From: Ridgeia piscesae
Taxonomy: Eukaryota > Annelida > Polychaeta > Sabellida > Siboglinidae
Direction: 5' to 3'
Length of the DNA stretch: 64,000 nt
Assembly (NCBI GenBank): GCA_025642075.2
Contig: JAODUO010000470.1
Location: forward strand, 351,001-415,000
Shown here: piece after piece, positions 5,847-36,603 of the stretch
Layout: each line of letters begins with the position of its first letter
How positions within the stretch are numbered: position 1 is the stretch's first letter
The notes under the pieces: generated by a model
Told to the model about the DNA's origin: nothing
Seen by the model: only the letters and a program-made list of their open reading frames with translations
Databases searched by the model: none
Made by a program: the position numbers and the translations under genes

Positions 5847-5913
5847 CATGGCATCGCTGGATCTCCTCCACAAACACCTGGGCCGCCTCCAGTTCATCCG
5901 GATTGGGCTCCAT
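5847..5913 (-). CDS. SYNE1-like: Nesprin-like gene, alternative first coding exon 1e (proximal)
   Basis: The ATG at 5913 opens a 22-codon frame, MEPNPDELEAA ... FVEEIQRCH, that stops at a consensus donor CATG/GTAGGT with one spare G. That G plus the first two bases of exon 2 (AT) gives Asp, so the joined reading is EEIQRCH-DEQEMVQKK. The ATG has a purine at -3 and G at +4, and an in-frame TAG lies 27 bases upstream, so this ATG is the first in frame. The acidic, helix-like peptide resembles the short leader ahead of the actin-binding domain in nesprins (QRLQ-DEQE in SYNE1). Exon identity comes from ATG, donor and phase; there is no transcript evidence. Confidence 0.62.
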
Positions 5914-5949
5914 GGCCCTAAAACCCTGGGGTTGCGCCTAATCCACACG

Positions 5950-6620
5950 TGAACACAAACTCCTAATGACGACCATGACTACAGTGGCTACACAGGTAAA
6001 CTGGGTCGGTACCAGTGCCGGTGTAACTGGTACCTGTGCCGCCACGGAGTACACCCAACTCTCAGTCAGTCGTCCATCATACTGAGTCACACTTCAGCTG
6101 CCCACAAATATACTGTGAGTGTCCGAGATAACTCACACTGTGACTACAGCCCTCACTGGCTTGCACAGTAGGCTGTGAAATCTTCCGCTTATCACCCAGT
6201 GCATGTCAATGATGATAGGGCCCCCTGTGATATCAACAATTTCACCTGACAGAGGCAGCGGCCGTTGTACCTGTCGAGGCAGCCTCATAAGTGTTATCAA
6301 TCAGGCCGCCACCACTACAACCTCACTGTCTACGACTCCAGTGGAATTTACACCTACACAAGCTGATAGCACTATGGATGGGACCAAGCCAGACAGAGGG
6401 TGAACCTCAGTTGCAAATCGGGAGCTTTCTGGGCCACACACAAACGCACTGTGGAAGACGGTGCCAAGATATGTTGTAATGTTACTGCGTTGCCGCATAA
6501 GTTGAAGGCAAAACCAATGCACATTTGTGTTGGATTAAACGAAACTGGGAAACTGGAATCTGGTGAGTTTTGCATCGGTTGGATGTTCAGTTATGTCTGG
6601 AATGTTTACGACAGTCAACA
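5950..6620 (+). pseudogene. Possible decayed Ig-like repeat sequence
   Basis: The plus strand shows two diverged segments, HKYTVSVRDNSH (about 6097-6135) and HHYNLTVYDSSGIYTYTS (about 6308-6363). The second is followed, after two stops in the same frame, by VNLSCKSG at 6400. This pattern recalls the end of one immunoglobulin-like domain (V.DSSxYTC) and the start of the next (L.C). Stops interrupt it, the expected cysteine after YT is absent, and no splice structure is evident. It might also be chance, or the transcribed leader upstream of exon 1e on the other strand. Confidence 0.25.
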
Positions 6621-7259
6621 TCAACCGTCATGTATTATGTGTGCTTATCTTAAATACACTGTAGCTCTCTGCTATACTTCCTGGTTGTGTCCTATCTGGT
6701 CATTGTAAGTACTGGTAGTTTCTCGTTTTGTCTGCTAAGATCTTATTCCTCAACTCAACGTCCTCCAGCATATCTGTTCTTTCCTAACATTTCTAACACC
6801 AACTTGACCTCTCTGGGAATAATTAAGCTATCCACCAATAACTATACACAAATTCACTTCTACCACCTTAAACCAAACAGTAGCCACCCCCCCCCACCCT
6901 TCACTGGTCTGAAATTCTAGTTTTTACTGTCCGCTTGCAACTATTCTCCCTCCAAATTACCCCTTTCTCTCTGCCACCCCCCAGTGGAATTCATCAAGGC
7001 ACCATTAAAATACTCACTAAAACACTTAAATCATCTATTAATGTGTTCATGCTAATAATCTAAATCCTTATGATAAAGCTGACAGATTACTGACAAGGAC
7101 AAATACTGATGCCAAACTGTTGGACTCTTGAGAGGCATTAGGCTTCCTTGTCAATATGCCTCCTGAAACTAGTGGCTATGGACAGGATCCTTTTAAAAAC
7201 ATTCACATTCTTCAACTGAAATGTATTAATCAGAGTCATATAACATAATTATATTCCTA
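6621..7259. other. Intron-like DNA, no feature seen
   Basis: AT-rich non-coding sequence with a short C run at 6887-6898. No gene or repeat family recognised. Confidence 0.5.
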
Positions 7260-33290: not shown

Positions 33291-33642
33291 TATACAATAT
33301 ATATATATATATATATATATATATATATATATGTATATATATATATATATATATATATATATATATATATATATATATATATATATATATATATATATGT
33401 GTGTATATGTGTGTGTGTGTGTGTGTGTGTGTGTGTGTGTGTGTGTGTGTGTGTGTGTGTGTGTGTGTGTGTGTGTTTGTGTAACACATTTTATTTGTGT
33501 AGCGCCCGAGTCATATTTATATAAATATGTTTGTAATGTATAATATATATATATATATATATATATATATATATATATATACATATACATATACATATAC
33601 ATTATATATATATATATATATATATATATATATATATACATA
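33291..33642. repeat. (TA)n-(GT)n-(TA)n compound microsatellite
   Basis: TA run 33,297-33,398, GT run 33,399-33,476, then TA runs at 33,543-33,580 and 33,602-33,640 with ACATAT interruptions. Confidence 0.97.
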
Positions 33643-36339
33643 ATATATAAATAAATGCTTGTATGTATTTATATGATACAAATAAAAACAACCCCTTTAC
33701 AATGTAACAGAATAAACATTATAACGTTCCAATGGTTATGCTTCCCCTAAACCGACATGTGTACATCTGAATGTGTAGACGTGAATTATGTGGTCCGATA
33801 AAACGGCCTCCAGCGGGGAGAGAATGCTGGGTATTTATGTGTGAGTGTGTAAACGCATGTAGATCTCTAAGTTCAATATTGTTCCTGTCTAGGTGTGGTG
33901 GCAAACGCAGCCTGAAGGCGTCTGTACAAGCCTAGACATGAAACAAAAGTCCACCAAGTGCTACACAACTTATGGGTTACAGACCTCCTTCACACTTAAA
34001 CTGGGCATTGGTCAGACTCGAAAACAATGGAAGAGGACTGGACACCAACTTGAGGTTACAATGCCACCACAGACGTAGTATTTAAAAGATCTGGAGGGCC
34101 GCAGTGGTATGATATGCGAAGTTCTTCGGCCACATAACCGGTTCATGATTTAACTACAGTGTATCTGGGCTAAAAACATATTTTCAAGAGTAAGCAAACA
34201 TCAAAGTTCTACCAAGTGTAATTGTATAGGTTAATCTGGTTCTGCGTTAATGCTAGATTTAAGCAACATGTTACACAACATCACCTCTGTTACTATAAAG
34301 TTAAAGACGCTCCAGAATAGTATTTCCGATAAATCTGACTGACCCTGTGAAATATAACCAAAACAATTGTTTTACAATATTTTGTGACCCCAGAAAACCA
34401 AGCACCAAAAATACACAAATCTCTACTGCCCTATATATCTAGCTTTAAAATACTATAAATATGTTGTTCTCAGGAGTCAATGACAGCAGATGACATTTAC
34501 CGGTGACATCTGTGCAAAAAAACATAGTTTGGAAAGATAACACTCAAATGCACGTATGCCTAGTCACCTATCCTCAAATATATCCACCCCTCCTGGAAAG
34601 TAATAAATGTAAATCTATCTATACTAAAACGGAAGGATGCAACAGGAAACTGTATTATTATTCTAATAAGCCTCAAGTTCCAAAACACCTACACTAGGTT
34701 CAAAGTTATGATGCCATTTATCAAAGTTTCAAGAATGTCTTGACTTTGCTGACCCAACCATGGAACAAGCACAAACATGAAGCACTGAGTCACACTTGTG
34801 ACATTGTTTCAAGTTAAACACCACCTGTGGTCAAAAGCCTTTCACCAATGTCAAGATGATCCTTCACTTGTTTTATTAACTGAACAATAGATGATGACAT
34901 AACTTGGCGACCCACTGAATGACACCGCCTACGTTGTGACAACATATTCCGATGGGTAATAATGTCTACGGTGCATTGTATGATTCAATAACGTCAAGAA
35001 AAATATTTGCAAACAACGGTTTTCTTCAAAATGACCTGCAAGATGGAGGAAGAACTAGAACTAAAATAGTATTAGACTATTACATAACACAGAGATAATT
35101 TAATATCTGATCAGCCATTATATGTGCAACTGGAGCTGTACGGGTCACGCAGAATGAAGGAAAAAGTATATCAACTCATCACATATTCATCCAGTATCTT
35201 AAGCCACCGACATTTTACAAATGGTCACAGGTTTATGTATATAAAAAATTCAGGGGAAATGAGGTTAAATAACACTGATTTCTTATTGGCTCACACCCCC
35301 CCTACAGAACAAATCACAGGTAGAAATTACCCCGTTACAATATTTAAAAATTTACATCTTCTCGTGACTTTTTGTTCTCAGTGCTTTTCACCAATTAAAA
35401 CATCGCACACAGGTGAAGCCAACACTAATTTCCAGATAAATCAAATGCAACCACAACGTGGCCCTCCTATGTCCTGGCAATTGACCACTCAATTTGAGGA
35501 CTGAAAAAGGAAATAACTCTAAGTAACTACCTTTGTTTTTAATACATTCTTAATTAGCACCTAAAAAAACGATAGAGTGAACATAGAAAGAGTTGAGTGG
35601 ACGTGAATCGTCTCAACCAGGGGGTAGACAGACTCACAATGGTCAATGGATCTAAGTTAGCACAGAACTAGGCAAGTAAACCTCATTGCCTACAGTGCCA
35701 CAGACCATGCGCTCACAAAAAACGACACCACATGTTGCCACGTAAATATTACAACTAGAAGATTCACAAATGTTTACAAAAAATTAAATAAAAAATACAT
35801 TACAAGTGAATATATTACAATATGCCGCACAAGTATGACATAAGCGAAAGCAATAAACTACACATGTATGGGATTATATATATATATATATATGTGTAAG
35901 TTACCAGATTAACATTATAAAAGATTGACACTAAATATATAATAATTATATGTCTTTAGTGTCAACCATTGGTGGCTTCAGATATTTCCCCATCTATTTG
36001 GTCTGAACAAGATACAATTTATTGTTATCAGCGCTAGGTCTGTCAAGGTAACAACCTTTATGTGATAATGTATCTTATCACACCTGGGTGCAGGACATTG
36101 CATAATTCTGATTGTGGCATCACTGCCACAGGACCAGGTAATATCAACAGTCCACTGTATCAACACACATCATCAGCTGTATCTATCCATTGTCACAGGT
36201 TTCAGGGCAAACTAAACTGAAGGTCACCGATTGGTTGAAATTACACCAACAGCACACAACGCAACCTGCTGGAAAACAAACGATGCAAAAAATGATGGCC
36301 AAGCATGTATGAATATAAATAATAGCGGCCTGCACCCAC
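33643..36339. other. Intron-like DNA, no feature seen
   Basis: AT-rich sequence with a short TA run at 35,874-35,893. No exon or mobile element recognised. Confidence 0.45.
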
Positions 36340-36603
36340 CTGCAAGGTTCTGTATGGTGAGTCGAATGTTTCCTTTCTCGGGCACTGGCCCGGGGCTACT
36401 GGCCCGACTGCTTTGGCTGCTGTGGTTCTCATCCCGAACAAACCAGCCCGGGGCGGGGCTCCCACCCTGGGGTAGACTGGACCGCCCCGCAAACGCACCC
36501 CCACTTGGTCGTCTCTGGGCCATGGCGATCGGGTCATTCAGTGGTCAAGGGTTCTGTTAGTCGTATATATCCATTGTAACAGCCCTAGTGTCTCGGGCAT
36601 TGT
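36340..36603 (-). CDS. SYNE1-like: Nesprin-like gene, distal first coding exon 1a (coding 36340-36523)
   Basis: The exon starts after a good acceptor (CTATTCTACGTTTCAG/ACA) at 36603 and ends at TTGCAG/GTGGGT. The main ATG at 36523 has an ideal context (GCCATGG) and an in-frame upstream TGA. It gives 61 codons plus one G: MAQRRPSGGAFAGRSS, a Gly/Ser/Pro-rich disordered stretch, then KGNIRLTIQNLA. Joining to exon 2 gives IQNLA-DEQEMVQKK, the same split Asp. The low-complexity head followed by a short helix before DEQE is like the N-terminal leader of nesprins and beta-spectrins. The resulting first intron would be about 35 kb and hold the other first exons. Two upstream ATGs lie in the exon (see 36538-36600 and the weak-context ATG at 36537). 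Confidence 0.7.
36538..36600 (-). promoter_or_regulatory. Upstream ORF in the leader of exon 1a
   Basis: The ATG three bases into the exon opens a 20-codon frame (MPETLGLLQWIYTTNRTLDH) ending at TGA, 14 bases before the main ATG. A second ATG at 36537, in weak context, opens a long overlapping frame in another phase. Both would be expected to reduce or condition initiation at 36523. Confidence 0.55.

Follow-up and report, generated by a model that had tools for sequence, protein, structure and literature searches.

Introduction

Nesprin-1 is a giant protein that tethers nuclei and organelles to actin. In dystonin, the first exons sit before the actin-binding domain. Several systems of alternative starts have been reported in such proteins. 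For example, about 12 first exons are spliced into exon 2 of plectin (PLEC), and the short, differing N-termini have been linked to expression profile (PMC8468861). The use of the first exons of dystonin isoforms 1, 2 and 3 has been shown to differ between heart and brain (PMC9365387). In Drosophila, the nesprin-1 gene Msp300 has start exons 1, 3, 18 and 21 (PMC8616381), and the promoter region of its isoforms RD, RL and RB, upstream of their first exon, is bound by Pdm3 (PMC7185995); the isoforms bearing the calponin-homology (CH) domain would arise from two starts. Another example is that of human nesprin-1 and nesprin-2, with many alternative 5' ends, many of them tissue-specific, located within the gene, from intron 14-15 on in nesprin-1 and from exon 49 on in nesprin-2 (PMC3388047). 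Dystrophin was considered as a closer parallel and rejected, its first exons being mostly internal (PMC1790709). Here, a stretch of 64,000 nucleotides of the annelid Ridgeia piscesae (GenBank assembly GCA_025642075.2, contig JAODUO010000470.1, positions 351,001 to 415,000; hereafter the window) is analyzed. We consider it probable that a nesprin-1 gene in this window has a plectin-style bank of alternative first coding exons, in which leaders E, F, D and A, with b likely and a perhaps among them, feed one common exon starting at 1158 (Table 1). On sequence only, E, D, F and A are strongly indicated, and a and b weakly, to be coding first exons whose donors match the phase of that exon.

The common exon and the identity of the gene

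The gene, whose 5' end is on the minus strand, is most likely of nesprin-1 type (SYNE1/Msp300-type); the window would hold the first half of CH1, with CH2, rod and KASH outside. Joined together, exons 1158-1097 and 875-780 gave a Pfam CH match (E-value 1.4e-9) that corresponds to the first half of the CH domain. The nesprin-1 label was chosen because the 53 CH1 residues are closest to SYNE1 (70%, against 60% for SYNE2) when compared with fragments of the human proteins, those of spectrin, plectin, MACF1 and dystrophin giving 49-54% identity. No nesprin was present among the 47 solved-structure matches listed for the CH exons, the best of which were spectrin, plectin, utrophin and dystrophin.

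The receiving exon is identical at 21 of 21 residues in P0004, from another contig, and the next CH1 exon shows 84.8% identity with P0003 over 33 aligned residues. The exon at 1158 is preceded by ...tatgctttcag and, as stated in a preliminary description of this DNA, requires one G to give DEQEMVQKKTFTNW. Where this exon starts, P0004 reads LS-DEQEMVQ, as the window does; judged from that translation, the position and phase of the acceptor therefore look conserved. In P0001 and P0002, from other contigs, reading continues across the site of the intron after SYLTQ, so this intron was gained or lost between animals.

Candidate leader exons

Five minus-strand ATG frames had been listed in the preliminary description (A, a, b, D and E), and all of them are present, each followed by GT and leaving a remainder of one base, a final G. 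A sixth candidate, leader F, had been overlooked and was found by the scan reported below; its peptide is strongly basic, and both its start context and its donor are good. The frame at 7458 extends upstream through more in-frame ATGs, with the first stop at 7503. Pfam found no family in the five leaders, and Rfam at gathering thresholds gave no match. The motif VQRL-x-SLR does terminate the leaders at 7458 and 8550, as had been noted; the likeness to SYNE1 MQRLQ drawn from it is shifted by three residues, and the donors of this pair are the weakest. Two further resemblances were seen: spliced A would read EIQRCH-DEQEMVQ, gapless by eye with SYNE1 VMQRLQ-DEQEIVQ, and spliced D would read PGWYEP-DE, while E contains PGWFVRDE. 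Neither these nor the offset match of a and b to MQRLQ were relied on.

Table 1. Features described in the text, with positions counted from the first letter of the window; a slash in a donor marks the exon/intron boundary.
Feature	Positions	Strand	Description	Basis or rank
Receiving exon, common	1097..1158	(-)	62 bp coding for (D)EQEMVQKKTFTNWINSYLTQ, acceptor in phase 1	Sequence, Pfam, P0004
Next CH1 exon	780..875	(-)	96 bp, RDPPVTIEDLFEDIKDGSKLLYLLEVLTDQKL, donor CTG/GTCAGT, score 3.07	Limits by eye
Leader A	5847..5913	(-)	MEPNPDELEAAQVFVEEIQRCH, donor ATG/GTAGGT (4.02 bits)	Fourth distinct frame in scan, 7.72
Leader a	7371..7458	(-)	MIFHDQSTASGPLVKAIEVPIVQRLNSLR, donor GAG/GTCTGT, weak (1.28 bits)	
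Leader b	8463..8550	(-)	MTSYDQSTASGQLVRAMEVPFVQRLHSLR, tandem paralogue of a, donor GAG/GTCTGT, weak (1.28 bits), combined score 3.99	
Leader D	19271..19352	(-)	MVDIICRNGRYYNRWEWPASEPGWYEP, donor CAG/GTGGGT (6.75 bits)	Second in scan, 9.21
Leader F	32885..32954	(-)	MTSLKARFRKLFHRKSSHHEFDN, donor ATG/GTGAGA	Third in scan, 8.68
Leader E	36340..36523	(-)	61 codons, donor CAG/GTGGGT (6.75 bits), conserved coding exon	First in scan, 10.55
5' part of E exon	36524..36603	(-)	80 bases after an acceptor-like ...ctacgtttcag, with a stop in frame 8 codons upstream of the ATG	
Duplicated cassette, copy a	7307..7845	(-)	Upstream region, leader, intron start	blastn
Duplicated cassette, copy b	8410..8951	(-)	CpG peak 8851-9250 overlaps upstream end	blastn
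CpG-rich stretch, candidate promoter of D	19651..20050	.	Observed/expected ratio 1.53	

Relatives of the leader peptides had been proposed as a check, and one was found for leader E. In a protein search with E and A, P0005, from another genome, was the only match at an E-value of at most 1 among 3 candidates (95 residues, E-value 3.7e-14). This protein starts MAHTPQRR where leader E starts MAQRRP, and both contain GGSPAPGWFVRDEN, SSRASSPG and KGNIR-TI-NLAG. The two sequences are similar throughout up to NLAG and diverge after it, the pairwise alignment going on for no more than a gap of six residues and a handful of further positions. Judged from this match, leader E is a coding exon. After NLAG, P0005 reads G-K-W, as would be read from G/GTAARTGG; therefore, as far as the translation tells, the position and phase of the E donor look conserved. 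At 36603 the E exon is bounded by a sequence resembling an acceptor, and a stop in frame precedes its ATG, so an upstream non-coding exon is probably where the E transcript begins.

Comparison with chance

The leaders were compared with chance by means of a scan in which start-codon context and donor were added into one score. Phase-1 frames of 8-110 codons were taken, with a final G, a donor score of at least 1 and the 5'-most ATG, starts being placed from 1158 to 61000 and frames mostly within tandem repeats being dropped; leader a is unscored at ATG 7458 because the scan uses the 5'-most ATG. The top four distinct minus-strand frames were E, D, F and A, and the best plus-strand frame reached 5.72. 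With any final base allowed and at least 20 codons, frames scoring at least 7 numbered 1, 4 and 0 in phases 0, 1 and 2 of the minus strand and 0, 0 and 1 on the plus strand. At a score of at least 6, these numbers were 2, 5 and 2 against 1, 0 and 1, one of the five minus-strand phase-1 frames overlapping D.

In second-order Markov simulations with 20 codons, the mean number of phase-1 frames was 0.30 at a score of at least 7 and 0.70 at a score of at least 6, and the four and five frames observed were reached in none of 300 runs in either case. When the minimum was set to 10 codons, five frames at a score of at least 6 were reached in 2 of 300. First-order simulations gave a mean of 0.43 at a score of at least 7, four being reached in 1 of 150. 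As a set, E, D, F and A exceed chance.

CpG peaks as candidate promoters

The highest non-repeat CpG peak between 1 and 43.3 kb lies about 300 bases upstream of D. Among the eight top peaks of this region, ranks 1, 2, 3, 4 and 6 are at D, b, E, b and D, respectively, rank 7 is about 800 bases upstream of F, and ranks 5 and 8 are at no leader. Zones of 800 bases extending upstream from each donor were also compared with random zones. By CpG count, the fraction of random zones as high was 0.012 for D, 0.035 for b and, marginally, 0.071 for E. When the zones at A, b, D, F and E were taken together (a omitted), their mean CpG count was matched by 0.0005 of random sets and their mean observed/expected ratio (o/e) by 0.019.

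The tandem pair a and b

Leaders a and b belong to two cassettes derived from a tandem duplication of about 560 bases, with 72.8% identity over 563 columns by blastn and no third copy within the window. A dispersed repeat as the origin of the pair was unsupported, the searched window holding two copies only. The leader frames of a and b show 17 differences in 87 bases and 8 residue changes. It is quite conceivable, if somewhat less so than the opposite, that what was duplicated at 7458/8550 is a promoter or another non-coding element with an incidental open reading frame (ORF) and that, if spliced, the pair perhaps uses a donor near 7684/8795. This alternative, which is compatible with the other readings, draws on the identity of the exon (0.807), which compares with 0.71-0.77 upstream and 0.84 in the aligned intron start; conservation of the pair was rejected as proof of coding, since the flanks are nearly as conserved. 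The weak donor fits it as well, and the substitution test is only suggestive: with substitutions placed at random, a count of 8 residue changes and no stop was reached in 6.0% of cases over the whole frame (0.060) and in 5.0% (0.050) when the first four codons were omitted. On the other hand, the exon has no gaps in 88 columns and all five flank segments are gapped, the ratio of nonsynonymous to synonymous differences per site (pN/pS) is 0.31, and the donor sequence is identical in both copies. Moreover, exon 875-780 of the same gene likewise has a donor with C at +3. The CpG o/e is 0.78 in copy b and 0.31 in copy a; that b retains its CpGs would fit b being the working copy.

Each cassette also contains an extra short minus-strand frame, MNQDTPGP (7708-7684) in a and MNQSAPGS (about 8819-8795, by eye) in b. 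Both end at a phase-1 CAG/GTAGAC donor of 1.78 bits, slightly above that of the VQRL leaders.

A model of alternative first exons

In the bank proposed here, separate promoters spread over 36 kb would give rise to transcripts that differ in their first exon. Each leader would contribute a short N-terminus plus one G, to be spliced onto exon 1158, where the CH1 actin-binding domain begins. By analogy with plectin, the leader would be a label for the time and place at which one and the same giant protein is produced and acts, and it might also adjust the actin-binding domain. The preliminary description had already read the locus as swapping leaders in front of a constant domain, and part of this has stood: the CH domain appears to be of nesprin-1 type, E is conserved up to its donor, E, D and A (and F) lie above chance, and CpG peaks are found at D, b and E. 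A fuller version is more doubtful, namely that six promoter-plus-leader units, one of them produced by the tandem duplication of the 560-base cassette, send this actin-binding giant to different places or cells. Under that version, the acidic, basic (KARFRKLFHRK), aromatic or Gly/Ser/Pro-rich N-termini would form a targeting layer opposite the KASH end.

Several observations count against a bank of leaders. Frames of the required kind are abundant: when those of 20-70 codons with a donor score of at least 0 were counted from 1158 to 40000, repeats unmasked, 44 phase-1 frames ending in G were found on the minus strand and 17 on the plus strand. Minus-strand frames numbered 48, 60 and 59 in phases 0, 1 and 2, phase 1 not being in excess. 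Because phase-1 frames ending in G are common, the agreement on exactly one G, to which the preliminary description had pointed, is largely selection, and it was rejected as stand-alone evidence. High scores were also obtained by controls, that is, a plus-strand phase-2 frame (8.2) and a minus-strand phase-0 frame (10.7), the latter overlapping D and using its donor. The weights used for donors and start context are of vertebrate type, untrained on the present genome, and the score cuts of 7 and 6 were chosen once the leaders had already been seen. The CpG counts lend no individual support to A (0.158), F (0.334) or a (0.560). By o/e, only D (0.012) and b (0.072) stand out, the others being at 0.40 or above. 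The downstream o/e is as high as that upstream for b (1.25 vs. 1.18) and E (0.83 vs. 0.81), which weakens the promoter reading for these two. As regards relatives, parts of b, D and F brought up no candidate in a protein search, which can detect a relative only where unspliced DNA has been called as a gene, and leader A had no match of its own in the low-power search made with E and A. In our judgement these negatives weigh little, because exons as short as these are rarely picked up by gene calling on unspliced DNA. Finally, E could splice to an exon other than 1158.

The abundance of frames leads to the alternative that there is one true 5' leader (E, with its non-coding exon upstream), perhaps with one more, and that the remaining frames are chance ORFs in a long first intron. 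Although the 44 minus-strand frames, the cross-genome match for E only and the weak donors of a and b speak for it, D, F and A together with E surpass both the simulations and the opposite strand, and CpG counts are high upstream of D and b; we regard it as unlikely. Less probable still is that some leaders belong to another transcript of the same strand, or join intermediate exons and not 1158 directly. The distance from leader to 1158 is up to 35 kb, with the phase as the only known tie between them, and the Pfam scan of ten long minus-strand frames covered this interval, from 1158 to 36340, with only two of them (2452-3021 and 21653-22057). However, one of these has its family match by a seeming LINE-type (long interspersed nuclear element) tail and the other has no family, and E, D, F and A are all in the phase required by 1158, although the scan had selected for that phase. 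A bank of first coding exons feeding exon 1158 is kept here as the probable reading.

Other features of the window

Between the leaders and the CH exon, the minus-strand frame 2452-3021 has a Pfam ALKBH8_N match (2.1e-9), inside a piece that by eye resembles a LINE-type tail. Retroelement remains are found at 51187-55113 on the minus strand, with a reverse transcriptase (53773-55113), an endonuclease-type segment (51187-51792) and a GDSL esterase-type segment (52254-52604). An ORF of 530 codons on the same strand, at 61234-62826, has a stretch near its start that resembles a signal peptide by eye, and two CpG peaks inside. This ORF gave no Pfam match, and it may represent an adjacent gene of one exon whose product is secreted.

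Comparison with known systems

In plectin, the common exon begins at the same CH1 position (DERDRVQKKTFTKW) as in the present gene, and the leaders also direct targeting. Both genes would thus have several first coding exons before one common CH exon. Plectin differs in being a plakin and not a nesprin, and in that transcripts and isoform knock-outs exist for it. Dystonin also belongs to the plakin family, and has three starts. Among nesprins, Msp300 has fewer starts before the CH domain, and a bank of coding leaders is not described in the available parts of its sources (PMC8616381; PMC7185995). The human 5' ends given in that source (PMC3388047) would drop the CH domain, unlike the exchange of leaders before it in the present gene. 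A limited literature search on first exons, starts and promoters of nesprin, SYNE1 and Msp300, with most subscription papers outside it, brought to light no account of such a bank of leaders ahead of the CH domain in a nesprin. CH-bearing nesprins have been reported to act away from the nucleus too, one instance being the registration of myofibrils in the muscle of Drosophila (PMC8616381). If true, the leader bank would be a testable answer to the question of what sends these proteins there. The arrangement as such is known from plectin, and a bank of such size before a nesprin CH domain appears to be new; if it is true, nesprins and plakins would share one device at the same point of the CH domain, either inherited or arisen twice.

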